IMG/VR virus record: IMGVR_UViG_3300008267_005425
Coordinates: 1-56,497 of that record
Origin: a virus
Length of the DNA stretch: 56,497 bases
Strand: one strand, 5' to 3'
The notes beneath the pieces were generated by a model. The model had not been told where the DNA came from and searched no databases. It saw only the letters and a list, made by a program, of their open reading frames with translations. Of this stretch, positions 2,568 through 43,306 are shown one piece after another; position 1 is the stretch's first letter, and the number at the start of each line of letters is the position of its first letter. The translations under genes were made by a program, and so were the position numbers.

Positions 2568-2794
2568 TTTATTCTTACTTTAAGTTTTTGTATTGCAGTC
2601 AAAAACTCCTCCACCGTGAATGTAGCCTTTGACATATCTGTAGCAATCTTAATGAGTGGCAGTAGTTCTGGCTCTCTGTCTACGATCTTCATCAAGGTAG
2701 TCAGCGCAGTACCCGCCCAAAAGGTTCCAAAGGAAGACTCCCCTAGCAAGTTTGCTTCGTTAAGAGTATCCTCTTCCTTATCACCAGGCATCAT
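2564..2794 (-). CDS. Hypothetical protein
   Basis: Unrecognised, about 76 residues and mostly helical. The ATG at 2794 overlaps the upstream glycosyltransferase stop as TGATG, the junction style used across this region; an in-frame ATG at 2809 would add five residues. Nothing in the sequence ties it to the glycan genes beyond co-transcription. Confidence 0.6.
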   Translation of the reverse strand: MMPGDKEEDTLNEANLLGESSFGTFWAGTALTTLMKIVDREPELLPLIKIATDMSKATFTVEEFLTAIQKLKVRIK

Positions 2795-4029: not shown

Positions 4030-4031
4030 AA

Positions 4032-4706: not shown

Positions 4707-4730
4707 ATTGTTTATTTATTAGTATAGCGA

Positions 4731-6117: not shown

Positions 6118-7046
6118 TGTTTGAAATAGTTGTAAGTTTTTAGGATGAACTGCAATTCGTCTTTGGATACTGTAACAAGATTGGACGTAAACTCATCCCA
6201 GGAAAACTCACTATCATGTACATCTTTGTAGTGCATATAAAAAGTATCGTGATGCTCGTTATAGAAGGTGCGCGGAACCTCTTCCTTGCTGACCATCATT
6301 TCGTGTAGTTTTTCGGATATGCGAGGTTGACCTAAATCATAGCCCAACCCAAACTCCTCTGCATAAATCTCAAACAGGTCTTGTATTTTAAACGCTTTTA
6401 AGTTTGGAATAACACTATACCCACTCACCTCGAGTCCACGTTCGATTAGATCGATAGCTTGCTCTATATCAATCATAAATCGTGTCATCTGAGGAGAGTA
6501 TAACTTCAATCTATAGCCCTTCGATATAGCATCCCAGATGAGTGGGATTACACTACCAGTACTATTAAGTACGTTACCATAGATTGCTGTACTCAGCCTT
6601 ACCTTTGACTTTTCGGCATTGACTATGAAGGCTTCACCTGCAACAAACTTCATTGCTCCATATAGTGTAGTTGCTGCTCTTGATTTATCTGACGAGATGA
6701 AGCATGCAGCTTCCATTCCTACCTCTTCAGCAACTCTTCTGGAGTTAATTGCTCCATCGATAATCACTCTTACACCTTCTTCAACGTTTTGATCTACTGC
6801 CTCTATTTGTTTCAGTGAGGCTGCAAAGATTCCAATATCGTGTCCATCAGCAGCTCGTCTCATCAAATCATAATTTCGTACATCACCAACAACGCAAGTT
6901 ATATTGGGAAACTCCTTTTTGAGGTAATAGTGCTTTGCCTCATCGCGAGAATAAACAGTAATCTCATTATCGCTGTAGTATCTCTTAACTATACTTCTTC
7001 CTAGATATCCAGCACCACCTGTGATAAAAATCTTTTTATTCTTCAT
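6114..7046 (-). CDS. CapE/PseB-like UDP-GlcNAc 4,6-dehydratase
   Basis: An extended SDR of the inverting dehydratase group: TGGAGYLG at residues 9-16, YSRDE at 32-36, GDVRN at 54-58, FAASLKQIEAV from 74, SSDK at 118-121 and YGAMK at 129-133, with a TRFM-type strand later. CapE/FlaA1-type enzymes convert UDP-GlcNAc to a 4-keto-6-deoxy sugar, the first step toward FucNAc-, QuiNAc- or pseudaminic-type sugars. The next two genes encode matching reductases. The usual P/N of the S-D-K-A-x-x-P-x-N stretch is replaced (SSDKSRAATTLYG), so this is a diverged member. Confidence 0.85.
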   Translation of the reverse strand: MKNKKIFITGGAGYLGRSIVKRYYSDNEITVYSRDEAKHYYLKKEFPNITCVVGDVRNYDLMRRAADGHDIGIFAASLKQIEAVDQNVEEGVRVIIDGAINSRRVAEEVGMEAACFISSDKSRAATTLYGAMKFVAGEAFIVNAEKSKVRLSTAIYGNVLNSTGSVIPLIWDAISKGYRLKLYSPQMTRFMIDIEQAIDLIERGLEVSGYSVIPNLKAFKIQDLFEIYAEEFGLGYDLGQPRISEKLHEMMVSKEEVPRTFYNEHHDTFYMHYKDVHDSEFSWDEFTSNLVTVSKDELQFILKTYNYFKQ

Positions 7047-12239: not shown

Positions 12240-13550
12240 TTATACTTTTTTAAGTTTAGGTAATTCGATTTTTTTTAGTTGTGGTAGTTTGAGTTCCACT
12301 TGCTTAGGAAACTCCGGGATACGTTGATCCATAAGTTGTATCAGCTTGTCGCTCATGTGTTGTAGTGTAAATTCTTTTTGAATTACTTTAGCTTGTTTGC
12401 GACCTACTTCTTCGTAGTTTTTGTAGTTTTCCACCACATCTTTCATAACGCTTGCTGCGTATCCGTAGTCTACTGAAAACCACTGAGACTCTATTAGAAT
12501 CATATTCTCTGCAGCTGCAGATGGATGTACGTTTGTTAGTTGACCTGGTAATAGTACAGCTTCTTTTAGGAAGTCTATGTGGCCTGACCAGTTTGGTGCA
12601 ATAATTGGTTTACGAGACGTTCCTGCTTCTGCCAAAGGTCGTCCATAACCTTCTCCCTTTGTAAGAGTGACGTGTGCCTTAATCTTTGGATGATTGTATA
12701 GTGAGTTCATCTCTTCGTCAGTTAAATCACCATGCAACAAGTATACGTTTGGTAATCTCTTTCCCCCACTAACCGATTGTCTAATTAAGTTAATTCGTCT
12801 CAACATTTCTTGCTTATCGAGTGGACTGAAATCTGCTCGAGAAGACTTCAAGATTAGTGCTGGTTGGTTTTGTGGTGATTTGTTTTTGAACGCTTCAAGG
12901 AAAGTACGAATAAGTGCTCCTACGTTTTTACGATCTTCACCAAAGTCTCCATTTAACCAGTGACCGACAAACAAGAAAGCAAAGCTCTCCTTAACATTTT
13001 GCAACTCATCAACTATTGTTTTGTTTAGTGTTTTTGTTGCAAAGTACTTTTCAAGGTCAACACCTTCAAACAAAACTTCAATAGGCTTGTTGAGTTTAAT
13101 TTCACCCATTGGTTGGTTTGTATTCTGATCATGCTGCATCCAAGCAGACTCTTGCAATACCTTCTTTGAGTGTTCAGATGATGTCAGAATCAAATCCATT
13201 CTGTTACATCCATCCACCCAAGGAGCTGCCGCTAGCGTTGTTTCAATTCCTGCAGTAATTCCGATATTGAATTTACCCACACGTTGAAACTCGTTAGGTA
13301 CTGTGATCTGAATAAAGATGTCAGGTTGAGCATCTAATCTAGGCTCTTGTAGCATCCTATCTAGGATTGCTTTGTGCTCTTCGTTCTCTGCACTGAGTGC
13401 GTTCATTGGAGTTGTACCCCATCGAGTACTCCATATCTTTATGTTGTACTTATCTGACTTAATTAGACTCGTTGCAATATCTCGAGATCGAGCTCCGTAA
13501 CCTGATACGGTTGCAACGGGTGCCATTAAAAGTAATGTTGGTTTTGACAT
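12240..13550 (-). CDS. GT4-like (GT-B) glycosyltransferase
   Basis: I start at the ATG at 13550 (MSKPTLLLMAP), which begins the first beta strand; a longer reading would overlap the upstream gene and needs TTG. GYGARSRDI is the acceptor-side glycine loop, FLFVGHWLNGDFG the linker strand and TKGEGYGRPLAEAG the donor-binding E-x7-E-type motif. The tail is unusual, with three similar short Pro/Lys/Leu segments (VELKLPQL, IELPKL). Likely works with the neighbouring GT4. Confidence 0.85.
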   Translation of the reverse strand: MSKPTLLLMAPVATVSGYGARSRDIATSLIKSDKYNIKIWSTRWGTTPMNALSAENEEHKAILDRMLQEPRLDAQPDIFIQITVPNEFQRVGKFNIGITAGIETTLAAAPWVDGCNRMDLILTSSEHSKKVLQESAWMQHDQNTNQPMGEIKLNKPIEVLFEGVDLEKYFATKTLNKTIVDELQNVKESFAFLFVGHWLNGDFGEDRKNVGALIRTFLEAFKNKSPQNQPALILKSSRADFSPLDKQEMLRRINLIRQSVSGGKRLPNVYLLHGDLTDEEMNSLYNHPKIKAHVTLTKGEGYGRPLAEAGTSRKPIIAPNWSGHIDFLKEAVLLPGQLTNVHPSAAAENMILIESQWFSVDYGYAASVMKDVVENYKNYEEVGRKQAKVIQKEFTLQHMSDKLIQLMDQRIPEFPKQVELKLPQLKKIELPKLKKV

Positions 13551-13560
13551 ACGTAACTTG

Positions 13561-15051
13561 TTATAGTGTGATTCCTGTTTTTCTATTCTTTGTTTTAACA
13601 ACCTCTTCTGCTACATTGTACAGAGTAAATCTCTTTGGTGCAACCCAGTTATTTAGAGTTGCATCAACAGCTACTGAGAATCTATTAGCCATATGCTCAG
13701 CTGTAAATCCTGCCTCATCGGACATAGCCCATTCACGTCCTTGATTGCCACAATAGGTTCTTACCTGGTGACCTGCTTCATACCAATACTCGATTGCTGC
13801 GGCTACATCTCTTATATCACAACGATCATCAAAGATGTATGGTGTTGGAATCGATCCCTGTAAGTTGATTGCTGCTGGAAACACAGGTCTAACCCACTCT
13901 CCATGCTTTCTGTATCGTCCGGTGTGATTAGATGCAAAGTCTTCGTCAAACTCAATCCAGTTACCCTCTTCATCTTCAAAACGACACTGATCTTGCAGAC
14001 CTCCGGTAACATTGTTTATCAACACTCTACCAGTCATCATTGCTTCTGTACTACTCAATCCCCAACCTTCATTGGATGCAATGTTGATAACGACATCACA
14101 AGCATTGTATAGTAAGTTCATTCCCTTTGAGTCGTGGCGTACGTTGTCAAATTGAATGCTGTCTGCTAATTCCGGGCATAGTGTATCTATCACAGCTATT
14201 AGATCTGTACCATTCTCATCTGCTGGTTGAGTCTTTAATACTAATCGAACATCTGAATTGTCCCCTGACGCCTTTAATCCGTCACAAAATAACTTAAACG
14301 CCAAAATAACATCTGAGGTCATCTTTCTGCGGATGTTTCGATTATTGTATAGAACAACAAGCTCTGGGTTGGCATCACCAAATAGCGACTTCCTCATCTG
14401 CTGTACTTCAGCATCCTCTCTGTCAATGGGATAAAAGTACTTACTATCAATTCCATGAGGAACATAGCACACTTTTGGTAGTTGATGAACTTTTGTATCT
14501 TCTTTAAACCACAACTCATTATCGATGTCTAGGTAATTATCTGCACCTAAAACCAACTTAGCAATGTTGTTGGATTGCTTACTGATTCCCATCAACAAGT
14601 CACAAGACTCGTAGTACGGCTTATTGTAGTGTGGTGCAGGAAGATCATCCCAAATGTGATAATAGAAGATTGGAATGTTTTGTCTAATTTCAGCAGACAT
14701 TTGATACAACCAAATCCAGTATCTAGGATCTGTGAAATGTACGATTGCGTCTATTTTATGCTTTGACATCAAAGCTCTAACTAAGTCTGGATCTCCATAT
14801 CCGTTGTTGGGGTATAGAATCACACTTGAGTCTTCAATACCCATCTCTTTGTTTATGTCTGCGCTTAAATCAAAAATCTTACCTATATCTGGGTGATTGA
14901 TTGCTGCAGCGACGTGGACAAAGTTGTATCGATGAGCGTTGTGCAATACAAGCTCTCGAGTCATTGTTCCGATTCCGGATGGAAGTCTTAAATCATCTGC
15001 TAAAAAGAGAATAGTCTTTCTCTCGTTTTTTGGAATGTAACCTTTCTTCAT
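13561..15051 (-). CDS. GT4-like (GT-B) glycosyltransferase
   Basis: First gene of the glycan operon. FLADDLRLPSGIGTMTREL carries the acceptor glycine loop, VLYNNRNIRRK begins the C-terminal half and NIASNEGWGLSSTEAM is the donor-site E-x7-E motif, followed by GRVLINN. At 496 residues it is full length. A TTG-N20-TATAGTAGT promoter sits 19 bases upstream, so it probably leads transcription through most of the locus. Confidence 0.85.
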   Translation of the reverse strand: MKKGYIPKNERKTILFLADDLRLPSGIGTMTRELVLHNAHRYNFVHVAAAINHPDIGKIFDLSADINKEMGIEDSSVILYPNNGYGDPDLVRALMSKHKIDAIVHFTDPRYWIWLYQMSAEIRQNIPIFYYHIWDDLPAPHYNKPYYESCDLLMGISKQSNNIAKLVLGADNYLDIDNELWFKEDTKVHQLPKVCYVPHGIDSKYFYPIDREDAEVQQMRKSLFGDANPELVVLYNNRNIRRKMTSDVILAFKLFCDGLKASGDNSDVRLVLKTQPADENGTDLIAVIDTLCPELADSIQFDNVRHDSKGMNLLYNACDVVINIASNEGWGLSSTEAMMTGRVLINNVTGGLQDQCRFEDEEGNWIEFDEDFASNHTGRYRKHGEWVRPVFPAAINLQGSIPTPYIFDDRCDIRDVAAAIEYWYEAGHQVRTYCGNQGREWAMSDEAGFTAEHMANRFSVAVDATLNNWVAPKRFTLYNVAEEVVKTKNRKTGITL

Positions 15052-17573: not shown

Positions 17574-17605
17574 CTAAAGGTACTTAACTTTATTCGAATA
17601 TGCAA
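17574..17605 (-). promoter_or_regulatory. Promoter TTG-N20-TACCTTTAG
   Basis: TTGCA from 17605, TACCTTTAG at 17582-17574. The ATG begins at 17570, so the transcript would be leaderless or nearly so. Confidence 0.7.
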
Positions 17606-17875: not shown

Positions 17876-19519
17876 CTAGTAGTAGCTTGGAACTGAGGAC
17901 TCTTTTTCTTCTTTTTCTTCAGGATCAAAACTGATAACGCACTCTGTGGTGAGCAGTGTTCCAGCTACAGAATTTGCTAACTCCAATGCTGTACGTGTAA
18001 CTTTGGTTGGATCCACAATTCCAGCCTCAAACATATTACACACAACATCTTGTCTAGCATCGTAACCAATAAATGCTGCGTCCTCTTTCTTATCCTTAAT
18101 AGCGTACTCAATTAAGTGAGCTACGGTATTTGGACTTTGTCCAGCATTTTCTACGATAGCACCAAATGGCGCTGCGCAGGCCTTTTTGATAATCTTAACA
18201 CCTAACGCCTGATCATCGTTTTCTGTCTCAACTTCCAACTTCTCACTAGCGTGTAGTAGTGCCATTCCTCCACCAGCAACAATACCCTCTTCAACAGCAG
18301 CTCTCGTTGCGTGTAGAGCATCATCAACTCTATCTTTCTTTTCTTTTAGTTCGATCTCAGTCGCTGCACCAATGTTCAGTACTGCAACACCTCCGATTAG
18401 TTTGCTTAAACGCTCTTTTAGAAATTGCTTCTCATAGTCGCTGTCTGCTGACTCGTACTGGTCTTTAATGTGTTGGATGCGCTCCTTGATAGCTTCTGAA
18501 TCTCCAGCACCATCAACAATAACAGTCTCGTCTTTGTTTACTGTAACCATTCTTGCTGTACCTAGTTGATTCATTGTAAGCTTTTCTAGCTTCATTCCCT
18601 TCTGAGTTGCAACTACTTCGCCACCAGTTAAGATAGCCATATCTTCTAGCATGTGGATTTTACGATCTCCAAATCCTGGTGACTTAATAGCACAGATGTT
18701 TAGAATACCTCGAGCTTTATTGACAACCATAGTTGCAAGCGCTTCTCCATCAACATCGTCTGCTACGATCAAGAGCGGCTTACCTTGCTTGCTACAATTC
18801 TCTAGTAAAGCCAACACCTCTTTAACGCTACCGATCTTTCTATCGTAGAATAGGATTAACGGATTCTCTAAAGTCGTACTCATTGTACTTTGGTTTGATA
18901 CAAAGTAGGGTGAAATGAATCCACGATCAACCTGCATACCTTCTACAACCTCCAAAGTCGTTTCTGAGGTCTTACTTTCGTCAACTTGGATCACACCATC
19001 TTTCCCAACACTATCCATAGCCTCAGCAATGATGTTTCCTACACTCGTATCATTATTAGCTGAGATAGTTGCTACTTGACGAATCTCGTCAATAGATTTC
19101 ACATCACGACTAATCTCACGCAAAGACTCGATAACTTGAGTAGTAGCTTTATCCATTCCACGCTTTAACTCTACTGGATTAACTCCTGCATTGATAGCTT
19201 TCAATCCTTCGTTATACATAACGGAAGCTAGTACTGTTGCTGTAGTTGTTCCATCACCAGCCATTTTTGCTGCTTTCATTGAAACCTCTTTGATAGCTTG
19301 AGCACCCATATTTTCAATTGGGTCTGTAAGGTGTATCTCCTTTGCAACTGAAACACCATCTTTAGTAATTACTGGTGCACCATTTTCTTTTTCGATCAAT
19401 ACATTGCGTCCTTTAGGACCTAGTGTGGACTTAACTGCAGAAGATAGTTTGTTTACTCCACTGCGCACCTTATCTCGTGCTTCCACATCATAACTGATAA
19501 TTCTTGACTTGTTGCTCAT
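17876..19519 (-). CDS. groEL: GroEL-type chaperonin
   Basis: A full-length 547-residue group I chaperonin. [10 protein letters not shown] and [10 protein letters not shown] are at 31-60, with ATP-site D54. [10 protein letters not shown] starts at 88 (D89). [16 protein letters not shown] and an intact apical domain follow. It forms double-ring folding chambers with GroES. The C-terminus is acidic and ends SSVPSYY without the flexible GGM repeat of bacterial GroEL. It is co-transcribed with groES (2-base gap) and closed by a strong terminator. Phage copies usually help fold capsid, tail or nucleotide enzymes; which client applies here is unknown. Confidence 0.97.
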
Positions 19520-20375: not shown

Positions 20376-22616
20376 TTAAACGTGCCCTTCTCCAAAATTA
20401 TCTGCAATGTTTGGCTCAGCTACTAATCCAGTTGCAATCTGTACAGTCGTTTCCATGCACTCCTTTGTAATCTCAGAAGCTTTTTGAGCATGCTCTGTCT
20501 TTGCGTTGATTACGAACTCATCGTGAATCTGTAACATGATACATGCATCCAATCCTTCCTCCTTAAATCGTTTATGAATCTGAATGGCCGATCTATTCAT
20601 AATAGATGCTGCTAGTGATTGTATCTGAAAGTTTTTACAGTTGTTTAGTCCATTCTTGTACTCCATACGAAGCTTCATCAGCTGTTGAGTTTGGTCAGGT
20701 GTCTTGGCCATTCGTTTCATCTGAGAGAATGGTCCTGGTTCAATAAGACTGTTCTCAAACTTTTCGTAGATACGCTTCACTCGATCTAAGTGTCGAATAC
20801 GTCCAGTCTTGTTTCTAATGAAACCAAACGTCTGAGCTCTAAGGTGACTATCACTCATCCACTTTGCTAACTCAGGGAAACCTTCTAGGTATCCGTCAAT
20901 CATCTTTTGTGCTTCTCTAATGTCGATGTTGAGCGATTGACCGATCTGCCACGCACCTGCTCCATAAGGAATAGCAAGCGCAATACTCTTTGCTCTCTGT
21001 CTAAGTTCTGGACGTAGGTTCTTGACATAGTTATCATCGCTTTTCTTTGCCGACATGCCTTTAAGTTTAAACGCCTGAATAGCCACTCTACAATATAAAT
21101 CCTCATTGTTAATAAATACGTTAATTAGATTAGGGTCATTACTTACGGATGCAAATACTCGAGGCTCCAAAGAGGACTGGTCACAGATAATAAACTTTCT
21201 ACCATCCTCAGCTTTCAAAAAGCTACGAATGATGTTATTGTATCTGAGTACTAACTCACTTTGCTCTCCCTCTTCCAACACACGAGGTAGCTGTTGGCAG
21301 TCGGAGCTAAAACGGCCTGAGGTAGTTCCGTGTTGTTTGAAGTACCAGTAATACCTTCCATTCTCGTTTCCGTCTAAGAAACGATCAACGTAGGCTGATT
21401 GTATCTTGTTTAGTTTGTTGTAGTCTCTCAGCTTAGCAGCCCAAGCATGGTCTTTATGTATGTGTTCGATGAAGTCATCGTCAAACTGATCTGTTCCTTT
21501 CTTAGTTTGACTGATAGGCTTTATTCCAACATACTTGAAGCACATTTCAGACAGCTGCTGCTTACTGCTTATGTTAATGAATGCACCCTCCTTTTGTTTA
21601 AGGAGTTCCAAACTAATAGCAATCTTATCTTGCTCGTTAAGATCCTTAGCATCTCCCGTCTGCAAGAATTTCTGACCAGCATCTGAATCTATAAGCTGTG
21701 ACAGCTTTTCTTCAACCAACTTACCGTAATGTCCTCTCTTTTTAGGTGGGTGATTTGTAAGTGCTCGAGCTACAACCCACTGCTGTACTTGTGGTACCTT
21801 CATTAAGTCTGAAATAATCTCTTGCTCAAGTCTCGTGATGTCTGCTGAAATTTGTTGCTTTGTCTTGGTGATGAGCTCGATATCTAGTTCTGTTCCAGTT
21901 TCTTCCATTTGGATCGTAACAGTCTTATATAGTGGCATCACCTCTTCCTCAAAAAAGAACTCCCACAACTCCTGCTCCTTGAGTATTGGCAGGTAGTAAG
22001 TCATAACTCGTAGTGTTAAGTCGGTATCGGCAGCTGCATATTCTCCTAGTAAGTTCATGTCAGCTTTAAAGATCTCGAAGTTGGTTTTAGTAATACTACC
22101 ACCGTTCCTTTGAATAGACTCCTTTAGCTTTACTTGCTCTTCGTTAGCTTCCTTCTCAGCATCTAATCCTAACTCATCTTGAATCTCGATAGCAATGTCC
22201 TTCAAACCAAAAGGACCATCCTCTTGCAGAGTGTGACGCAGTAACATCGTATCACAATATAAATCATCACGAAGATCAATTCCGTAGAAGTTCTTCGTAT
22301 ACCGAACGTCGAAAGATGCGTTGTGCATTACTAGCTTCTTACCTTTAAGCATGCTGATAAGATGCTTTGCAATGTCATCACACTTCTTACCTCCAATATA
22401 GGAGTCCACAAGTGATTGTGAATCTACATCCCAATATCGAGTTGGAAAGTAGTAACCTTCCCCAATATCCGCAGAAACAGAAAAACCAATGATCATCCCG
22501 TTTCTAGGATTAACACTAGTCGTCTCGGTATCGTATGCGATAATGTTTCCGTTCTTAATATAGTTAGCTAGTTCTACGACACCAGCCTCGTCGGTTATTA
22601 TCTCGTACTTCTTCAT
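20376..22616 (-). CDS. polA: Family A DNA polymerase with 3'-5' exonuclease
   Basis: 746 residues, no 5' nuclease domain. Exonuclease motifs: AYDTETT (ExoI, D29/E31), MHNASFDVRY (ExoII), YAAADTDLTL (ExoIII). Polymerase motifs: TSGRFSSDCQQLPR, FIICDQSSLEPRVFA (motif A), RQRAKSIALAIPYGAG (motif B) and LQIHDEFVI (motif C, H-D-E). All catalytic residues are present, so it should be the replicative polymerase. T4-like phages normally use a family B enzyme, so this replisome is mosaic. It ends the operon that starts with the small genes at 24774. Confidence 0.95.
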   Translation of the reverse strand: MKKYEIITDEAGVVELANYIKNGNIIAYDTETTSVNPRNGMIIGFSVSADIGEGYYFPTRYWDVDSQSLVDSYIGGKKCDDIAKHLISMLKGKKLVMHNASFDVRYTKNFYGIDLRDDLYCDTMLLRHTLQEDGPFGLKDIAIEIQDELGLDAEKEANEEQVKLKESIQRNGGSITKTNFEIFKADMNLLGEYAAADTDLTLRVMTYYLPILKEQELWEFFFEEEVMPLYKTVTIQMEETGTELDIELITKTKQQISADITRLEQEIISDLMKVPQVQQWVVARALTNHPPKKRGHYGKLVEEKLSQLIDSDAGQKFLQTGDAKDLNEQDKIAISLELLKQKEGAFINISSKQQLSEMCFKYVGIKPISQTKKGTDQFDDDFIEHIHKDHAWAAKLRDYNKLNKIQSAYVDRFLDGNENGRYYWYFKQHGTTSGRFSSDCQQLPRVLEEGEQSELVLRYNNIIRSFLKAEDGRKFIICDQSSLEPRVFASVSNDPNLINVFINNEDLYCRVAIQAFKLKGMSAKKSDDNYVKNLRPELRQRAKSIALAIPYGAGAWQIGQSLNIDIREAQKMIDGYLEGFPELAKWMSDSHLRAQTFGFIRNKTGRIRHLDRVKRIYEKFENSLIEPGPFSQMKRMAKTPDQTQQLMKLRMEYKNGLNNCKNFQIQSLAASIMNRSAIQIHKRFKEEGLDACIMLQIHDEFVINAKTEHAQKASEITKECMETTVQIATGLVAEPNIADNFGEGHV

Positions 22617-24793: not shown

Positions 24794-24825
24794 CTAAAGG
24801 TACATACTTAATTTCGTTTATGCAA
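24794..24825 (-). promoter_or_regulatory. Promoter TTG-N20-TACCTTTAG
   Basis: TTGCA from 24825; TACCTTTAG at 24802-24794. It is followed by ATATAAAATTAAAAGAGAT and the ATG, and resembles the two promoters just upstream over its whole length. Confidence 0.75.
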
Positions 24826-25757: not shown

Positions 25758-25789
25758 CTAAAGGTCATCACTCTTTTTCAATTCTGCAA
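25758..25789 (-). promoter_or_regulatory. Promoter TTG-N20-GACCTTTAG
   Basis: TTGCA from 25789; GACCTTTAG at 25766-25758, then GTATAACATTAAGAGAT before the ATG. First base of the -7 element is G instead of T. Confidence 0.7.
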
Positions 25790-26322: not shown

Positions 26323-26354
26323 CTAAAGGTCAGCCACATTTTTCGTATTTGCAA
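26323..26354 (-). promoter_or_regulatory. Promoter TTG-N20-GACCTTTAG
   Basis: TTGCA from 26354; GACCTTTAG at 26331-26323, then GTATAAGATTAAGAGAT before the ATG at 26305. It starts 10 bases after the terminator of the previous operon. Confidence 0.7.
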
Positions 26355-26363
26355 CAGTTAAGC

Positions 26364-26393
26364 AAAAAAAAAGCCAACTTTTTAAGGTTGGCT
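26364..26393 (-). terminator. Rho-independent terminator closing the deazaguanine operon
   Basis: Minus strand AGCCAAC-CTTAAAAA-GTTGGCT followed by eight or nine T, 23 bases past the TGT-like gene stop. Confidence 0.9.
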
Positions 26394-26415
26394 CTTTATA
26401 TGTTGAGAGATATGA

Positions 26416-27207
26416 TTACTTTCCGGTCATGCAGCTTAGTCTTAAAAACTGCACATTCTTCTTGATTAGTTCCATGTCAGCACCACTCATGCCGTACGTC
26501 TCAAGAAGGCTGTGTGGAGTTGGTATTCGTGTTGTATGGTCTACACGAAAGTCCTGTCCATTCAATGCTGCCCATACTGGATACACTGAGTCGGTGCTTC
26601 TCATCATCGGATGATCGTAGTAAGAGAACTCTGTTGGATCGCCTTGACCTAGGCAGTGGATTGGTTTCTTGAGCATGTCCCGTTCTTTCAAATAATCGTA
26701 AGCCATGTGACGTGCTTCTTTGATACCTTGGTCATCCTTCCACTCAGGCAACCATGCTTGAGGTATTGCGATCTTAGAGAATCCGATAGTTTGAATCCAA
26801 TCTTGCTCTAATCCCCACTGATAAGCCTCTAACCAATCTTCTTTTGTTTTACCTTGTGGACAAAAGAATATATCAATTAAGCTTAGTAAACCGCTACTCT
26901 CCATCCTATCTCGAAACTTAATAGCATTTGCGATTGTAGCATCTTTATCAAACAATACGTCAGGTGCTATCACTTCGTCAGGTAGTAATTCGTGGCATAC
27001 GTCAATCAGTACGTCTTCGGTTACAAGAGCTCTCTCTGCTGCTGAGTTATCTAGCGTGATCCATCTTTGTGGATCTTCGTCTACAAGTTTATTAATAAAT
27101 TCTCGGTACTCAGGAAACTGTACCCATAAGTGAGCCAATACAAAGATTCGATCTCCCAGCCTCATTGGCTCTAAGTTGCTAACTGGTGATATTACGTAAA
27201 AGTCCAT
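26416..27207 (-). CDS. TGT-like TIM-barrel protein, candidate DNA transglycosylase (DpdA-like)
   Basis: 263 residues. WITLDNSAAER resembles the early D-x-G/S block of tRNA-guanine transglycosylases. APDVLFD, then FCPQGKTKEDWLEAYQWGLE, then IHCLGQGDPTEF, then MMRSTDSVYP follow the order of the TGT/DpdA barrel, where the late S-x-D-S Asp is the nucleophile. DpdA proteins exchange guanine in DNA for a 7-deazaguanine. The call leans heavily on the operon, which has FolE, two PTPS-type proteins and QueE. It is shorter than most DpdA proteins and no zinc site is visible. It could instead be another barrel enzyme. Confidence 0.55.
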   Translation of the reverse strand: MDFYVISPVSNLEPMRLGDRIFVLAHLWVQFPEYREFINKLVDEDPQRWITLDNSAAERALVTEDVLIDVCHELLPDEVIAPDVLFDKDATIANAIKFRDRMESSGLLSLIDIFFCPQGKTKEDWLEAYQWGLEQDWIQTIGFSKIAIPQAWLPEWKDDQGIKEARHMAYDYLKERDMLKKPIHCLGQGDPTEFSYYDHPMMRSTDSVYPVWAALNGQDFRVDHTTRIPTPHSLLETYGMSGADMELIKKNVQFLRLSCMTGK

Positions 27208-27208
27208 A

Positions 27209-27529
27209 TTAATCTAAGGTTTCGTTTTGTTTTTTAAGTTCCTCAGGGAAGGGTTCAGTATTTGCTACAATCTCTGCAACAACCTCTGCAGGTAGTCTTT
27301 GGACTACAGATGATTCGGGGTTCTCTGGGTAGGATCTTCTTAATGGTTCTGCGCCTTTTAGATAACCTAAAGTATCAATATACTTTAGCAATTCTTTATC
27401 ACCCTCTATGAATAGAGTTGGAATTTCTGCGTACACGTTGTGCTTCGTTGCTGTTTGTTTGATAGCTACAAACTTGAAGTTTAGTCTGTGCAGCAACCAA
27501 CTGGCTAGCTTGATTTGTAACCTTTTCAT
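27209..27529 (-). CDS. Hypothetical protein of the deazaguanine operon
   Basis: 106 residues; basic N-terminus (MKRLQIKLASWLLHRLNFKF) that could be an amphipathic helix, acidic C-terminus. One base separates it from the TGT-like gene. Not recognised. Confidence 0.55.
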   Translation of the reverse strand: MKRLQIKLASWLLHRLNFKFVAIKQTATKHNVYAEIPTLFIEGDKELLKYIDTLGYLKGAEPLRRSYPENPESSVVQRLPAEVVAEIVANTEPFPEELKKQNETLD

Positions 27530-27530
27530 A

Positions 27531-27890
27531 TTACAATGTAACTGTAAAGATTTCTTTAATTACGATTTCATCTGCCTCTAAAGTACCACCAGCCTCTTCA
27601 CGCAACTGCACAGCTACTGCATAGTCGATTGAAATACCTGGCTTCTTCTCAATCCACATTTCTGTGATAAATGTTGATGACTTGATCTCGTTGTGCTTGT
27701 TTCTCTTTACTCGAAACACTGCTACTTTTACTTGTTGATTCATGCTACTTGAATTACTATTTAATGTTAAACCTCCATAAATGGTTGTACCTGGTGAGGC
27801 AATGTAGCTCGTACCGGTACTTAGTGTAGCGTTAAGACTACTACATCCCGTTGTTAAAGTTCCTGATGTGATATTAGTATTATACTCCAT
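27531..27890 (-). CDS. Hypothetical protein with Ser/Thr/Gly-rich N-terminus
   Basis: The ATG at 27890 overlaps the folE stop; the longer reading needs TTG. Roughly the first 50 residues are low complexity ([20 protein letters not shown]), like a fibre or surface repeat. The remainder ([23 protein letters not shown]) is a normal alpha/beta domain. An internal ATG at 27743 would give only that domain. An odd composition for an enzyme operon; function unknown. Confidence 0.5.
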
Positions 27891-28527
27891 AACGACTTTG
27901 ATCAATTAAGTTAAAAAATTCTTGTCTTGTGCCAATCTCATTGGTCCAGAAGTATCCAGACATTTGTGATGTCTTCATTACACTGTCTTGTTTGATTCCG
28001 CGACACTTAACACAGTTGTGTTGTGACTCGATTACTACTGCAACTCCTCGATTACCTATACACAAACGATCAACGTGGTCGTGAATTTGTTTAGTCAGTG
28101 ACTCTTGGATATTCGGACGACGAGAATAGAAATCTACAATACGGTTCAACTTACTTAATCCAATTACCAAATCACCTTTATCTTTTCCTGGAATATAAGC
28201 TACGTGAGCTACTCCTGAGAATGTTAAGTTGTGATGTGCACACATACTCATTACTGGAATACGAGTCTGACAGATAAGCCCTGTGTATCCTTCGTCGTTA
28301 GGGAATGCTGTTACTTCTGGTTCCGGTGCAATTGATCCAGCAATTAGGTCATTCACCCAAGCCTTAGCTACTCGGTACGGAGTACGATCACTGTGTGGAT
28401 CTGCTTTCCAATCGAAACCTAGTGCTGTTAAGAATCCTCCATAGTACTCAGCAGCTTTTTCGATCATCTGCTTTTTTTCTTCCTCCGTACGAGGAATGTT
28501 TCCATTTGCTTTTGTGATTAACTTCAT
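27880..28527 (-). CDS. folE: GTP cyclohydrolase I (FolE)
   Basis: 215 residues. MSMCAHHNL (zinc C96, H99), [20 protein letters not shown] and [11 protein letters not shown] (C172) are the diagnostic blocks. It converts GTP to dihydroneopterin triphosphate, the first step toward both folate and 7-deazaguanines. Because PTPS-type and QueE genes share the operon, the deazaguanine route is the likely purpose. Confidence 0.95.
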
Positions 28528-28530
28528 AGT

Positions 28531-29007
28531 TTAATAGTTGTGTAAAATTTGTAATCTTTCTTCGAATATACTAAAAATCTTCTGTCCTTCCAACTCTATT
28601 GGCTTGTTATCTGCAATATCGAAGGATTCGGTGTCTTTATCTGCGTTACGGATCTCGTAGCGTCGTTTTCTTACTTCAGTCGGTACTTCTAACCACACCA
28701 ACTCTGCCTCAGGAAAATGCTTGAGCAAGTACTCTACTATACTTGACTGTCGAATACCATCCACAACGATGTTGTGTACTTTGATTAAGTCGTTAGCCAT
28801 AAGGTAGTGGTAGTCTTCTATTCTCTTCAAGATTCTTTCAGCTATCTGTTGATCGAGGTGTTGTGTGTTTTGTAGTTGTGTGCGATCGTTGCTATTGATG
28901 AGCTCGCGAACAATGTCTGAAACTACTATTCTGTGAGCTCGTGCTTGAAATGAACTCTTACCGCTACAGATACGACCAAAGATTAAAATAAGTTCTGACT
29001 GCTTCAT
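28531..29007 (-). CDS. P-loop nucleotide kinase (dNMP-kinase-like)
   Basis: Start set at ATG 29007, which overlaps the upstream stop (ATGA). ILIFGRICSGKSSF holds a Walker A (G11-x4-GKS), VVSDIVREL the following D-x-V-R, and KVHNIVVDGIRQ a Walker B-like strand; RKRRYEIRN is a lid-type basic segment. This fits the adenylate-kinase-like group that includes phage deoxynucleoside monophosphate kinases. It may phosphorylate a modified or ordinary dNMP. Confidence 0.7.
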   Translation of the reverse strand: MKQSELILIFGRICSGKSSFQARAHRIVVSDIVRELINSNDRTQLQNTQHLDQQIAERILKRIEDYHYLMANDLIKVHNIVVDGIRQSSIVEYLLKHFPEAELVWLEVPTEVRKRRYEIRNADKDTESFDIADNKPIELEGQKIFSIFEERLQILHNY

Positions 29008-29345
29008 AGTTCTACTATACCAAAAAATTCTCCATCTTCCGACACTGAGCATCGACAGAGTCCAAAGTAATTTAATAAATCTTCTGCTATCATTTCACAA
29101 GACATAGCTCCAAAGTTGCAGCATCCATAAGCTGGATCGTACCAGGTACTTGCTATGTACTTTTTGATCTTGTGCTTGAAATCAATAAACTCAATGTCAC
29201 GATCTCCGTGAGATACTTCAGCTCTGCACGCTATTTGAAAGGTATGTCTGTGCAAGTGTGCTAGGTAATCTACGTGTGGTAGATTGCAGTCAGGCCAGTG
29301 ATGCAAGCCTTCTACGTTTATATGTACTTCTACGTATTTTTTCAT
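29004..29345 (-). CDS. PTPS/QueD-like protein, divergent
   Basis: 113 residues. GLHHWPDC carries a His pair and a Cys, LAHLHRHTFQI replaces the L-H-G-H-x-Y motif of PTPS, RDIEFIDFKHKI matches the G-x-x-x-D-F-x-x-L-K stretch and MSCEMIAEDLL the T-x-E-N-x-A helix. This resembles the 6-pyruvoyl-tetrahydropterin/6-carboxytetrahydropterin synthase fold in outline. The HGH to HRH change suggests a different substrate or a binding-only role. It is the second PTPS-type gene of the operon. Confidence 0.6.
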   Translation of the reverse strand: MKKYVEVHINVEGLHHWPDCNLPHVDYLAHLHRHTFQIACRAEVSHGDRDIEFIDFKHKIKKYIASTWYDPAYGCCNFGAMSCEMIAEDLLNYFGLCRCSVSEDGEFFGIVEL

Positions 29346-29827
29346 TACTTCTTGTCTTTATCTTTTTGCCATTGACCATCGTACAAATCCGCTGGAGTAT
29401 TCTCTAGCATGATTATCTGAGCTACTCGTGATCCCTTCTCGATTCGGATATCTTGATCCACAATCATAACTGCACCCATCTCCTCTACCTCAAATCCTGG
29501 ATCATAAACTCCGGATGTGATAATTGAACCGCATCGAAGAATAGATGAGCGGTGACGAATAAAGGCTGTGCGGTTCTCTGGAAGTTTGCATCCTTGATCG
29601 AATGTTAGTGAGTAAGTTCCTCGTGTTAGGTGAAACATATACTTTCCCGTTGGTGTTAGGGTTGGAGGCACCTCTTCGTAGTCTTCTACTAGAGTCTTAT
29701 CTCTAAGGACCATTCCTCCTTTAATTTTCTTTACTGCTTTTAGTGTCAGATCATATCCGACTTGTGCTTTGCTACCTAGACCGTTAGTTTCTAAGTGATC
29801 TGTAACCTGGTGTGAATTTAATAACAT
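29345..29827 (-). CDS. dcd: dCTP deaminase / dUTPase-family protein
   Basis: 160 residues with QVGYDLTL, FIRHRSSILRCG and SGVYDPGFEVEEMGAVM, the trimeric dUTPase/Dcd core; RVAQIIMLE is the closing strand. Dcd makes dUTP from dCTP, and dUTPase makes dUMP; both feed dTMP synthesis. The ...RSS... block with a conserved R/S pair favours Dcd-like chemistry, but the split cannot be made by eye. Confidence 0.8.
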   Translation of the reverse strand: MLLNSHQVTDHLETNGLGSKAQVGYDLTLKAVKKIKGGMVLRDKTLVEDYEEVPPTLTPTGKYMFHLTRGTYSLTFDQGCKLPENRTAFIRHRSSILRCGSIITSGVYDPGFEVEEMGAVMIVDQDIRIEKGSRVAQIIMLENTPADLYDGQWQKDKDKK

Positions 29828-29951
29828 AACTTTTTATATTTGAATTTAATACCTCAACAATTGTTTGGTAGTTTGTAACTACAGTTTCAATCAAGTTGGT
29901 GTGACTGAAACTATCCGGACAAAGTCCTATAAAATGTAATACTTCGTGCAT
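29784..29951 (-). CDS. Small hypothetical protein (55 aa)
   Basis: A 55-codon frame from ATG 29951, one base after the queE stop, ending inside the dcd start (44-base overlap). MHEVLHFIGLCPDSFSHTNL has no known motif. The junction with queE supports it; the long overlap argues some caution. Confidence 0.45.
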   Translation of the reverse strand: MHEVLHFIGLCPDSFSHTNLIETVVTNYQTIVEVLNSNIKSYVIKFTPGYRSLRN

Positions 29952-29952
29952 C

Positions 29953-30729
29953 TTAAACTCCTCTTTTTGTATCGTAAGCAATGATGTGATCTCGTCCCGT
30001 CATATTGTAACCACGCTCAGCACACATCTCAAATACTATCGGATACATCCTAATAAGCTCTTCACGAGTATCACCCGCTGGCATAATATACGTTTTTTCT
30101 TTTGGAATCAAAAGCTCGAGTCTAAGATTTTCTATCTCTTCGAGGTTCTTTTCTGTACCATCCCATACCGGCTTGTAGTGATAGTCTGCGTGATAAGTTA
30201 TCATCTCTTTCATTGCCATCTTGTTGAGTCTGAACTTATCATGCTGCTTAATCATCTTCTCATCCGTGATCGTCCCTTGCGGCGTAGGAGTACCCAAAAC
30301 GGGAACGCTATTGCTAAACTTAGGACTAAGACTGATAAGCCCAATAGGATAATCAGTAGCAATAAAATGTGAACCCTCAGTCTCAATAGTGATAAGAATG
30401 CCTTTTTCATGTGCAAAGTGTGTTAGCTCGTTTACTAGAGCTGGATGCATTGTAGGCGATCCACCAGTAAGCATCATCTCCTTGATGTGTGGATTCTCGT
30501 CGTATATCTTTGTGATATCATTAAACGTGAATGTTCCCTTCTCTGGATGAATACTAGTGTACCAGCTGTCACACCATCCTCCTTCTCCAAAGAAACATCT
30601 GTGAGTGCATCCGGTTGTTCGTACTGCGATTGTTGGTCGGCCAAATCTTGACCCTTCTGATTGTACACATCGATAGAGTTCAACTATCGGTAGTACTTTA
30701 TTGTAATCTGTAACTCTTCCTGGTGTCAT
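29953..30729 (-). CDS. queE: 7-carboxy-7-deazaguanine synthase (QueE)
   Basis: Start placed at ATG 30729, one base after the upstream stop. VELYRCVQSEGSRFGRPTIA is the QueE N-terminus. GCTHRCFFGEGGWCDSW contains the radical-SAM cysteines C41, C45 and C53, giving C-x3-C-x7-C instead of the usual C-x3-C-x2-C. MLTGGSPTMHP and TIETEGS are SAM- and substrate-binding blocks. QueE converts carboxytetrahydropterin to CDG. At 258 residues it is slightly longer than most. Confidence 0.92.
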   Translation of the reverse strand: MTPGRVTDYNKVLPIVELYRCVQSEGSRFGRPTIAVRTTGCTHRCFFGEGGWCDSWYTSIHPEKGTFTFNDITKIYDENPHIKEMMLTGGSPTMHPALVNELTHFAHEKGILITIETEGSHFIATDYPIGLISLSPKFSNSVPVLGTPTPQGTITDEKMIKQHDKFRLNKMAMKEMITYHADYHYKPVWDGTEKNLEEIENLRLELLIPKEKTYIMPAGDTREELIRMYPIVFEMCAERGYNMTGRDHIIAYDTKRGV

Positions 30730-30730
30730 A

Positions 30731-30985
30731 TTAAAATGGTAATTCGTCGTCATGTATTGATCCCACGGACTCAGCTCCTTTACTATCGGGGGTTGTATTA
30801 TTTCCAAAGTAGCGATCTAAGAACGATTTAGGGTACTTTAAAATTAAACCCGAGTAATTTGGATTCTCAACTTCATGGGCTGTTGCCTTTATTCCCTTAG
30901 CTTTTGCAGCGGCATAAACTTCCTTTCCTAGTTTGGAACCAGCAGGTTTGCCAAGATACTCGTATAGTGATAAATAGTTTTCCAT
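30731..30985 (-). CDS. Hypothetical protein of the deazaguanine operon
   Basis: 84 residues. GSKLGKEVYAAAKAKGIKA suggests a helical DNA- or nucleotide-facing region; the C-terminus is acidic and ends HDDELPF, like the acidic tips of SSB-type proteins. Unrecognised. Confidence 0.5.
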   Translation of the reverse strand: MENYLSLYEYLGKPAGSKLGKEVYAAAKAKGIKATAHEVENPNYSGLILKYPKSFLDRYFGNNTTPDSKGAESVGSIHDDELPF

Positions 30986-30991
30986 GTAACC

Positions 30992-31063
30992 TTATTTTGT
31001 AATTGTGTAAATTATTTTAACATCTCCTACTGTGCTTGTAGAAGTCCAGTAACTATCCTTCAT
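30992..31063 (-). CDS. Possible 23-aa peptide
   Basis: From ATG 31063, overlapping the queD stop, a 23-codon frame (MKDSYWTSTSTVGDVKIIYT...) runs to 30992. The longer frame containing it is a shadow of queD. Support is only the junction geometry. Confidence 0.25.
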   Translation of the reverse strand: MKDSYWTSTSTVGDVKIIYTITK

Positions 31064-31529
31064 AGATGCTTGAGTTTTTATCGTTTTCAAAACATTCAAC
31101 TTTAATGCACTTACAACGTCCTGCATCTGTTTTAGATAACACGTCATTGAATTTATCGTACACCAGCTTTGCACAAGACTCAGCTCCCATCTTCTCCATG
31201 AAGTGAACCTTAGCAAGTCCCATCTGACCTAGCTGTTCAAATATATCTGCATACGGATCATCCTTTTGAATTAGTAGTGTATGATCCCACATATGATCCA
31301 TCCACGACTTTAATCCATTACCAACTGGTGCATCTTTGAAACCTCCGTAATCAACTATCCAGTTCATATCGTCAAGTTGATTCTCTTCTAGTGGTTCGTT
31401 TGAAGCAAACCAAACCTTAAACTTGAGTGCATATCCGTGTAATAGCTCACAATGTGAGTGTGATGCTTTCCATTGACGTATTGCAACAGAATAATTGTCA
31501 AATAACTTTGTCGAAATGTATCTACCCAT
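31053..31529 (-). CDS. queD: 6-carboxytetrahydropterin synthase (QueD, PTPS family)
   Basis: Start at ATG 31529 (MGRYISTKLFDNYS). SHSHCELLHGYALKF carries the catalytic Cys and zinc His cluster, NWIVDYGGFK the G-x-V-x-D-F-like strand and WDHTLLI the D-H pair. QueD turns dihydroneopterin triphosphate into CPH4, the QueE substrate. The canonical H-G-H is H-G-Y here, so one zinc ligand is replaced or supplied elsewhere. 158 residues, longer than the 120-residue minimum because of an insertion after Y-G-G-F-K. Confidence 0.8.
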   Translation of the reverse strand: MGRYISTKLFDNYSVAIRQWKASHSHCELLHGYALKFKVWFASNEPLEENQLDDMNWIVDYGGFKDAPVGNGLKSWMDHMWDHTLLIQKDDPYADIFEQLGQMGLAKVHFMEKMGAESCAKLVYDKFNDVLSKTDAGRCKCIKVECFENDKNSSIYEG

Positions 31530-31713
31530 TTTTCTTTGATTTTTTTGATTTTTTAATATCAGTATGATACTCCGTATCAATGCTTGCTAGTTCAATAGTA
31601 ATGTACTCAGGTGTTAGTTGATCTAATCCTATTCCCGTACATACTGTAATTGTGTTCTTTTTTGCCATAACCTTTTGATGTAACTCCCAGTCTACTATGC
31701 AGCTGTTCCTCAT
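31522..31713 (-). CDS. Small hypothetical protein
   Basis: 63 residues with an ATGA overlap to the previous gene; a second ATG (31668) starts at MAKKNTITVCTGIG. The C-terminus is Lys/Ser-rich (DIKKSKKSKKNG). Overlaps the queD start by 8 bases. Unknown. Confidence 0.5.
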   Translation of the reverse strand: MRNSCIVDWELHQKVMAKKNTITVCTGIGLDQLTPEYITIELASIDTEYHTDIKKSKKSKKNG

Positions 31714-32162
31714 ATACTTTGTAATTGTTTTTCGCTTAATTCACTATACAAAAAATAAAACTCCCTAGCACCGGGTATGTCTTTTTTTATTGCCTCTTGA
31801 AACGTTTCTTCCCAAACATCTACTCCAAACTCTCGAATCAAACTAGCTCTCAAATACATCAAACGTGATGTCTCTTCGTTGTAGTAGTCTTCTATAAGTT
31901 TGTTATACCTCTTACGATACCTACGCTCTATGTCGTGATACCGTTCATCATCTTTGGGATTATTCCCTCTGTAAGATTTAGCAAACGCTGCTAGATCCTT
32001 ATCACATCGAACCAACTCTTCCTCTGCTTGTCTTTTAAAGTCTGAATGATCAAAGTCTCCGTGATCAATCTGCTGTAAGAGAAAAGGAATACCCTTCTTG
32101 GCATCCTTTCGCTGTAACTTGTTTTTAGGACGATATCGTCTCCACCAATTGAATTTACTCAT
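31710..32162 (-). CDS. Hypothetical basic helical protein
   Basis: 150 residues, rich in K, R and Y (WWRRYRPKNKLQRKDAKK, then ERRYRKRYNKL), predicted helical. It might bind nucleic acid. Second gene of the operon; not recognised. Confidence 0.55.
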   Translation of the reverse strand: MSKFNWWRRYRPKNKLQRKDAKKGIPFLLQQIDHGDFDHSDFKRQAEEELVRCDKDLAAFAKSYRGNNPKDDERYHDIERRYRKRYNKLIEDYYNEETSRLMYLRASLIREFGVDVWEETFQEAIKKDIPGAREFYFLYSELSEKQLQSI

Positions 32163-32163
32163 A

Positions 32164-32352
32164 TTATTCTATAACTTGTGCTTCTTCTATTTTACGACAG
32201 AAATACAAAAGGCCATCCTTTCTTAATACCGTATCACACATATAGTGTTCCTTCGCTTCCTCAGTTGGAAAGTTTGGGTGATCTCTAAATGTTCGATATA
32301 CTATGAATAGGTTGCCTTGAAATGTAACTATTTGTTTCTCTCTAAATGACAT
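32164..32352 (-). CDS. Small hypothetical protein, first gene of the deazaguanine operon
   Basis: 62 residues, beta-rich (KQIVTFQGNLFIVYRTF, KDGLLYFCRKI). It follows the promoter at 32356-32387 by only three bases, so the transcript is nearly leaderless. Unknown. Confidence 0.55.
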   Translation of the reverse strand: MSFREKQIVTFQGNLFIVYRTFRDHPNFPTEEAKEHYMCDTVLRKDGLLYFCRKIEEAQVIE

Positions 32353-32355
32353 GAG

Positions 32356-32387
32356 TTAAATATAACCAAAAAGGCTCACATTTGCAA
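32356..32387 (-). promoter_or_regulatory. Promoter TTG-N20-TATATTTAA of the deazaguanine operon
   Basis: TTG at 32387-32385, 20 bases, TATATTTAA at 32364-32356. Its -33 element lies inside the terminator hairpin of the preceding gene. Confidence 0.65.
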
Positions 32388-32394
32388 GCCTTTT
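32368..32394 (-). terminator. Rho-independent terminator overlapping the next promoter
   Basis: Minus strand AAAAGGCT-TGCAAATGTG-AGCCTTTT, 8 bases past the stop of the 456-residue gene; the descending arm runs into a T tract. Confidence 0.75.
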
Positions 32395-41973: not shown

Positions 41974-43278
41974 TTAACAAAGTTTCATTTCTGAATATGT
42001 TATTCCCTTCTTAATCTTGACAGGAAACTTATTCAGATCAATACTTTGAGGTATTACTTCCTTTAATAAATAGTCAAGCTCTTCGCTTGGCACGTCAAAA
42101 AGAATACTATCGTAGGTATAGAGTACTGCAACTGTTTTGTGGTTTTGTAGTTGATCTTGGATTGGTTTCAGAGTCAATACATTGAACTCTGTCTCATACA
42201 TCTGCAAAAAGTAGTTGAATAGTGTGTATAAGGTAATGTCCTGATAATTGGCTAATATCAGCTTTCTACCTGATACCGGACTCTCAATGTATCCATGATC
42301 TTGAGCGAAGTACCACAAACGCTCAGCTAACTCTTTTGCTGCTTTGAAAAACGGTACGTGCAAATACTGCTTACTAATTCCTCCATAAATCTGTCTGAAT
42401 GTAGATTCTTTTGCTTGTAGTATTTGTGGTTTTGTTGGTGTCTGAGTATCGTGATAATGTTTAGCCAAATGCTCATACACATCCTCAGAACCAAAGTCAT
42501 ACCCAGTGAGTGATGCGATTAACCTTGGATGGTATGAATTAAAGTCTAGCTCAACTAAGCTTCCATTCTCAAACCTACTAACAAAGCAATCTCGAGACCC
42601 ATCATCCTTATTCAAAGCTGCGAAGTTTATTCCTCCAAACCTATTACTAGGACGTCCGGTGGTTGTGTAATAGTTATACTGGGTATAGCTTTTATCCTCA
42701 TTTACAGAAAAGGATTGACCAAACGCCTCAGTAAACTTTGTAGGATTGATTTGGATACCATTCTTCTCTATGTCATAAAATGCACTCAGTAATTGGTTTT
42801 GATAGAAGTCCAGACCCGGTTGCTTCTCTGCTACATATATTCGTTCAAATAAATCGTAAGCAATATCTTCATGCTTTGGTAAGCTGACAAGTGAACCTAA
42901 TACATTACAATCTGCAATATAGCGGGCGTAGTGGTTCAAAATGCTGGGAGTCTCGAAATTACAAGGTTGATTAAGCTTTAGGTAGTATTGAAGCTGTGCG
43001 TCAATAAAACCTCTTGTATCATAACCTGCATATTTGAATAGAATTGTATCATAACTATACACATTGCAGTTATAGAGAAAGTTGAAGTCGTCAATTCGAA
43101 ATATCCCATCCGGATGAGTCTTACTGACCGAATAAGTTTGTTTAGTTTGAACGTCGATCATAACCAGTGCTACGACGTCACTTACCACTCTATGTCTACG
43201 ACTATCTTGCAATACCGGATATACGAACAAAGTTCTTCCAGATAAGCTTTCGAGTTGATGCACGCTGTCTATGATCAT
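41974..43278 (-). CDS. Divergent family A polymerase-like protein
   Basis: Start at ATG 43278; the longer frame needs TTG. Numbering from the upstream in-frame TTG (43293; subtract 5 for the called start): TTTGRPSNRFGGINFAAL at 211-227 is the palm-entry block; LVELDFNSYHPRLIA (D250) corresponds to motif A; KESTFRQIYGGI to motif B (K295, Y303-G304); AVLYTYDSILFDV (D395) to motif C, with Y-D-S instead of H-D-E. The N-terminal 150 residues lack recognisable exonuclease acids. The two palm aspartates remain, so catalysis is possible. It coexists with the complete PolA at 20376. Confidence 0.75.
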   Translation of the reverse strand: MIIDSVHQLESLSGRTLFVYPVLQDSRRHRVVSDVVALVMIDVQTKQTYSVSKTHPDGIFRIDDFNFLYNCNVYSYDTILFKYAGYDTRGFIDAQLQYYLKLNQPCNFETPSILNHYARYIADCNVLGSLVSLPKHEDIAYDLFERIYVAEKQPGLDFYQNQLLSAFYDIEKNGIQINPTKFTEAFGQSFSVNEDKSYTQYNYYTTTGRPSNRFGGINFAALNKDDGSRDCFVSRFENGSLVELDFNSYHPRLIASLTGYDFGSEDVYEHLAKHYHDTQTPTKPQILQAKESTFRQIYGGISKQYLHVPFFKAAKELAERLWYFAQDHGYIESPVSGRKLILANYQDITLYTLFNYFLQMYETEFNVLTLKPIQDQLQNHKTVAVLYTYDSILFDVPSEELDYLLKEVIPQSIDLNKFPVKIKKGITYSEMKLC

Positions 43279-43306
43279 GCATCTAATATACAAATTTATT
43301 TAGATT

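Follow-up and report, generated by a model that had tools for sequence, protein, structure and literature searches.

In the Campylobacter phages CP220 and CPt10, 100% of the deoxyguanosine (dG) is replaced by 2'-deoxy-7-amido-7-deazaguanosine (dADG) (PMC8306585), and in the Vibrio phage nt-1, which encodes a long DpdA2 enzyme, only ~0.1% of the G is modified (PMC6884629). A phage may replace every G of its genome site by site after replication, or modified dGTP may be made in advance. The second route was suggested earlier for the Campylobacter phages, as quoted by Hutinet et al. (PMC6884629); that suggestion did not include the set of enzymes described here. The viral DNA analysed (IMG/VR record IMGVR_UViG_3300008267_005425, positions 1 to 56,497, referred to as the window) contains at positions 26364–32394 a unit of 15 genes, all on the minus strand (14 if a possible 23-residue open reading frame (ORF), gD, is not counted). 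We estimate at about 0.75 the probability that this unit is a phage module making a 7-deazaguanine base and installing it for guanine in the phage DNA.

Enzymes Encoded by the Unit

The identities of five genes were obtained from Pfam, PHROGs or NCBIfam profiles. They are FolE, GTP cyclohydrolase I (27880–28527; PF01227, 2.2e-43); QueD, 6-carboxytetrahydropterin synthase (31053–31529; PF01242, 2.7e-11, and phrog_2389, 5e-32); QueE, the radical SAM 7-carboxy-7-deazaguanine synthase (29953–30729; phrog_2076, 1e-48, and the Pfam radical-SAM domain, 1e-5); a protein of the dUTPase/Dcd (dCTP-deaminase) family (29345–29827; Pfam DCD/dUTPase, 9e-11); and a P-loop kinase (28531–29007; PF13238 (AAA_18), 2.6e-10), which the analysis of neighbouring genes makes a candidate (modified) dGMP kinase. 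The QueD of the unit retains Cys26, Asp81-His82 and Glu147 in an alignment with other phage QueDs, and its QueE shares 63% identity with that of the Cellulophaga phage phiST. Two further proteins, a second PTPS-fold protein (PTPS2) and a barrel protein, were recognised by their predicted folds. All the genes named in the sequence-only reading were therefore present. In the close IMG/VR relatives, QueD, QueE, dUTPase/Dcd, PTPS2, kinase, FolE and barrel recur, and the set made of FolE, QueD, QueE, PTPS2, kinase and barrel was found again in phiST (gp036–gp042), in the Chryseobacterium phage MA9V-3 and in many IMG contigs.

We propose that FolE, QueD and QueE would lead from GTP to 7-carboxy-7-deazaguanine (CDG), a product already put forward by the sequence-only reading and supported by the family membership of the three proteins. 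PTPS2 would carry CDG onward, most likely by removal of the carboxyl to give 7-deazaguanine (DG); otherwise CDG itself would be used. The barrel protein, of predicted transglycosylase fold, would then swap guanine for the modified base, probably genome-wide because its relatives CP220 and CPt10 have all of their dG replaced. The kinase, of the deoxynucleoside monophosphate (dNMP) type, and the dUTPase/Dcd-like protein would prepare the nucleotide pool, and the likely benefit would be an escape from restriction and other nucleases.

The Short Barrel Protein

The last gene of the unit (26416–27207) encodes a protein of 263 residues, which we assign to a short, DpdA3-like family of transglycosylase fold. 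Its AlphaFold2 model had a predicted local distance difference test score (pLDDT) of 94.1, and in a Foldseek search of the PDB the first 50 matches were all tRNA-guanine transglycosylase (TGT), with an E-value of ~5e-9 and a query-normalised TM-score of 0.64–0.69. The TGT relationship emerged through the fold search alone: a sequence search of the PDB with the barrel found no TGT, the Pfam TGT profile did not match, and the protein had no Pfam match at all. The TGT-like barrel anticipated from the sequence was thus confirmed at the level of the predicted fold, and the refuting outcome named in the sequence-only reading, a predicted structure unlike TGT, did not occur.

Homologues were found in phiST, MA9V-3, CP220, CPt10 and BSP7, and, via the family profile, in the Flavobacterium phage immuto, where the relative gp206 was labelled DpdA by its depositors. 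The residues invariant in the family alignment (D53, D83, P117-Q118, G142, H184, L186-G187 and D206-S207) appear to succeed one another as the active-site motifs of TGT do. The family measures about 260 residues, approximately 150 fewer than the long DpdA2. We take DpdA3 to be the name of this short DpdA family; a 2023 paper in Nucleic Acids Research reportedly describes a DpdA3 subfamily with complete replacement and argues for insertion after replication. The acidic isoelectric point of the barrel was considered as an argument against DNA binding and set aside as weak, the long TGTs being likewise acidic.

PTPS2 and the Near-Absence of QueC

PTPS2 (113 residues; 29004–29345) was predicted to adopt the QueD fold without the QueD catalytic triad. 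Its AlphaFold2 model reached a pLDDT of 95.7 and had E. coli QueD as top Foldseek match, which is what a second, redundant QueD would give. This explanation is nevertheless very unlikely. The 13 invariant residues of PTPS2 include H15, H32, R33, H34, R49, C83 and E103; three histidines seem to be positioned like zinc ligands and E103 like the pterin-anchoring glutamate, but an invariant Leu28, four residues before H32, stands where QueD has its catalytic Cys, and the QueD Asp-His pair is not among the invariant residues. Cys and Asp-His are kept in all six phage QueDs compared. Moreover, a full QueD lies alongside PTPS2 in the unit, and PTPS2 nearly excludes QueC. The two PTPS-type proteins counted in the sequence-only reading thus both have the fold, but they are not two QueDs, the second lacking the catalytic residues and occurring in the place of QueC.

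No match to QueC (PF06508) was found in the window, a 56-kb fragment, or in 14 PTPS2-bearing relatives. Among 41 PTPS2-bearing records a single one, D479, had QueC above the cut-off (32.8 bits, partial), and X1 had a sub-threshold match, whereas QueC was present in nine of nine tested TGT phages devoid of PTPS2. For the named records the exclusion gave a Fisher value of 3e-5, to be taken as a guide only, as the records are related and were picked via two different searches. Named phages, and not an unbiased set of contigs with QueE, were used for this comparison, the QueE alignment being too diverse for scanning and single QueE queries giving three loci. In 80 of 94 stretches PTPS2 was accompanied by a TGT, four TGT subfamilies being represented; many of the remaining 14 stretches were short. 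The stretches overlap and derive in some cases from the same contigs. PTPS2 was also observed in the 7-deazaguanine clusters of PA5oct, ACP17, RHph_I1_18, BUCT-ZZ01 and X1, mostly with other TGT subfamilies, and even in distant contigs, such as L054, the PTPS2 and barrel genes were still side by side, with DUF3310 and a gene of the Dcd family coming next.

Because QueC is nearly absent where PTPS2 is present, PTPS2 probably stands in for QueC, as a candidate enzyme acting on CDG. In the absence of QueC the pathway should stop at CDG or a derivative, and, given that the window fragment has no QueC match, the module would be confined to the CDG- or DG-type variant of the 7-deazaguanine pathway. 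The product of PTPS2 is perhaps 7-deazaguanine, decarboxylation being the simplest chemistry. A CDG decarboxylase, DpdL, was reportedly published in the 2023 paper mentioned above; PTPS2 is possibly this DpdL. PTPS2 is widespread, nearly excludes QueC, occurs with four TGT subfamilies and is called hypothetical protein in the records seen. It is an obvious protein in which to look for a 7-deazaguanine step that is new or has been proposed only very recently.

Another reading is that these genes raise the queuosine of host tRNA, or folate, with no DNA modification. FolE, QueD and QueE are common to those pathways, and tRNA boosting was raised for phages without DpdA (PMC6884629); as QueC was not found in the window, as the unit has a short protein of the TGT family dedicated to it, and as members of this family occur in phages with fully modified DNA, we regard this reading as extremely improbable.

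Several points weigh against the proposed module or against the part given to PTPS2. As the window is a fragment, QueC may lie elsewhere in the genome; D479 combines PTPS2 with its weak QueC match, and the records on which the exclusion rests are phylogenetically non-independent. The Faecalibacterium phage Roos (L089, 6031–7899) lacks QueE and has only PTPS2, a transporter of the YhhQ type and a TGT-like protein; CDG is not made by this phage, which perhaps imports its base. Finally, a GT4-type glycosyltransferase is found in the TGT/PTPS2 cluster of PA5oct, ACP17, BUCT-ZZ01 and X1 (L085, L086, L088 and L090). This fits poorly with a simple decarboxylation by PTPS2, unless the sugar goes elsewhere; a glycosylated 7-deazaguanine is possible in these four phages.

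Kinase and dUTPase/Dcd Neighbours of the Short Barrel

A kinase was counted when it lay within four genes of the TGT, with clustering at 40% or 50% identity. At 40% identity a kinase was near the short barrel in 5 of 7 clusters and near the long TGT in 0 of 7 (Fisher 0.02), and at 50% identity the counts were 10 of 13 and 0 of 8 (Fisher 0.001), with a motif that was widened after the data had been seen, the narrower GK[ST] having missed phiST, Ahp1 and D479 (all GKD). The background, measured with the wide motif, was 4 of 210 other large ORFs of the same stretches. The kinases beside the short barrel belong to at least four unrelated families: AAA_18 (window and L020), AAA_28 (CP220 and immuto), DNMK (Ahp1 and D479), and in addition a P-loop type with no family assigned (BSTP8) and DUF3310, a domain that in RHph_I1_18 is fused to the barrel. 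The neighbourhoods of the Roos-like and PA5oct-like TGTs had no kinase. The length of the short barrel alone was rejected as a predictor, as the Roos-like barrels of ~300 residues have none.

The T7 protein gp1.7, of the DUF3310 domain, phosphorylates dGMP and dTMP (PMC12846349, PMC7693777). This matters for the suggestion that the guanine freed by base exchange is recycled by the kinase together with phosphoribosyltransferases, whose genes lie near the clusters of PA5oct, BUCT-ZZ01 and immuto. Such a salvage would yield ribo-GMP, dealt with by the host guanylate kinase, whereas the kinases of the DNMK (PF21448) and DUF3310/T7 gp1.7 families act on deoxynucleotides, and the unit of the window has no phosphoribosyltransferase; guanine recycling is therefore unlikely.

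The dUTPase/Dcd protein of the unit retained the RSS motif and Asp109, and the Dcd glutamate was not seen at its usual position in this protein. Most short barrels of the PTPS2 type have a dUTPase/Dcd-like gene nearby; in other short-barrel neighbourhoods a MazG-like gene (phiST and L020) or an HD-domain protein (CP220) was present. A linkage of a candidate dNMP-type kinase and of a putative enzyme degrading deoxynucleoside triphosphates (dNTPs) to the barrel was thus seen in the gene neighbourhoods.

Exchange on DNA or on the Nucleotide

The kinase association argues for considering an insertion at the nucleotide level, where insertion into polymeric DNA had been assumed. In the conventional account the short barrel would exchange the base in polymeric DNA after replication, and the kinase and dUTPase would be ordinary nucleotide-supply genes travelling along. 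TGT and the DpdA of phage 9g act on polymers (PMC6884629), the barrel has the TGT fold, and its relative in immuto bears the annotation DpdA. Less easily accommodated are the unrelated kinases found by the short barrel and by none of the long TGT clusters, their absence beside the Roos-like and PA5oct-like TGTs, and the reduced length of the short barrel compared with the long DpdA2. We consider that this account has an even chance of being correct, and more generally that the odds between exchange on dGMP and exchange on DNA are roughly even.

Our tentative proposal, which we hold to be somewhat more apt to fail than to stand, is that the short TGT-fold enzyme works on the mononucleotide and not on DNA, and that PTPS2, in place of QueC, determines which of the 7-deazaguanines is installed. 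In this nucleotide-level route, dGTP would be converted to dGMP by the dUTPase/Dcd-like protein (MazG or HD elsewhere), the guanine on dGMP would be exchanged for CDG or 7-deazaguanine, and the dedicated kinase would form the diphosphate, the polymerase then building DNA wholly without G. This would explain why unrelated kinases stand beside the short TGT family alone, as well as the 100% replacement in its characterised members. Taken together, the full replacement of dG, the dNMP kinases dedicated to the family and the neighbours predicted to hydrolyse dNTPs fit a pre-replicative route via modified dGMP. As at least four unrelated families of dNMP kinases, including the T7 gp1.7-type DUF3310, are tied to one TGT family, the question of pre- or post-replicative replacement becomes directly testable on purified enzymes.

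Limits of the Unit and Other Genes of the Window

The 56.5-kb window carries the sheath gene of a contractile tail, replication genes and ribonucleotide reductase genes; no tRNA gene was seen in it. Among annotated phages, those infecting Flavobacterium, Cellulophaga and Chryseobacterium match it most closely. The self-contained operon of at least 13 genes previously described was upheld and extended, all 15 reading frames being open, with junctions ranging from an overlap of 44 nt to a gap of 6 nt. The terminator closing it also proved to be a real hairpin (26368–26397, minus strand; -13.5 kcal/mol, z -5.0).

The upstream boundary (32357–32394) is composed of the terminator hairpin of the preceding gene (32369–32394; z -3.7) and an overlapping Bacteroidota-type promoter-like element (32357–32387, minus strand), TTGCA-N18-TATATTTA. 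A promoter had been announced here; as a sigma-70 site it was rejected, such sites being not above chance (17 against 22.8 expected), and the Bacteroidota-type element took its place. The window has six copies of the pattern TTGCA-N17..19-KANNTTTA where 0.57 would be expected, and none of 100 shuffles reached six; the count is somewhat flattered, as the pattern was composed after the repeated sites had been seen. The TTGCA-N18-[GT]ANNTTTA sites, all on the minus strand, are at 612–642, 17575–17605, 24795–24825, 25759–25789, 26324–26354 and 32357–32387, and elements of this type stand mostly before genes that follow intergenic gaps. A second recurrent upstream motif, approximately TATTTATA(N)TAAA, was noticed before the ATG at 55667, 52671, 51539, 41939 and 19824 (minus strand) and is perhaps a late promoter.

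Eight genes of the unit have no assigned function. The first, gA (62 residues; 32164–32352), is kept in some close relatives only; gB (150 residues; 31710–32162) is kept across the clade of the window, gE (84 residues; 30731–30985) is clade-specific, and gF (55 residues; 29784–29951) is kept within the clade. The gene gC (63 residues; 31522–31713) was seen only in the contig of the phage itself, the possible 23-residue gD (30992–31063) has homologues at the equivalent place in L019 and L031, and gG (119 residues; 27531–27890) and gH (106 residues; 27209–27529) are sporadic; gC, gD, gG and gH come and go among the close relatives. In gE and several of its homologues the C-terminus is DDELPF, resembling the tail of the single-stranded DNA-binding protein. 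The members of unknown function had been presented as candidates for new steps. Most of them are weak candidates, four (gA, gB, gE and gF) being confined to the clade and the other four (gC, gD, gG and gH) being sporadic; the only widely conserved partners in the unit are PTPS2, the dUTPase/Dcd protein and the kinase.

Elsewhere in the window, on the same strand, a phage-encoded GroEL chaperonin (17876–19519; phrog_5725, 1e-166) was observed, as well as two glycosyltransferases with nucleotide-sugar epimerase-like and GtrB-like proteins (12240–15051 and 2794–7046). Two distinct genes (20376–22616 and 41974–43293) match an overlapping part of the profile of one DNA polymerase family (phrog_17).

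Comparison with Known Systems

Cellulophaga phage phiST has a similar unit in one run, gp036–gp042, with QueD, QueE, FolE, PTPS2 (gp040), P-loop kinase (gp041) and short barrel (gp042), and no QueC. It differs from the unit of the window by a MazG in place of the dUTPase/Dcd, by another gene order and by a barrel of only 39% identity; gp040 and gp042 stand as hypothetical in the public annotation. CP220 and CPt10 share a short barrel of the same family, with the kinase as the next gene in CP220. However, CP220 has QueC and no PTPS2, which matches dADG as its product; the genes do not form a single unit there, and an HD-domain protein lies upstream. The phage immuto (gp202–gp216) also has FolE, QueD, QueE, a short DpdA and a kinase, but with QueF-type, formyltransferase and phosphoribosyltransferase genes, with QueC and without PTPS2. 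The DpdA2 phages, such as Vibrio nt-1, likewise combine the 7-deazaguanine pathway with a TGT-fold enzyme, which is long (403–458 residues in the set examined) and accompanied by QueC, with no adjoining kinase or dUTPase.

We know of no TGT-fold protein in the phages containing 2-aminoadenine (Z). In these phages, e.g., S-2L, a complete base replacement goes with synthesis of the precursor and removal of the competing dNTP (PMC8065100, PMC8342488). A functional analogy with the unit of the window is possible, the enzymes being unrelated. Taken as a whole, the unit is a variant of the known 7-deazaguanine system, and its interesting part lies in its constant partners, PTPS2 and the kinase.

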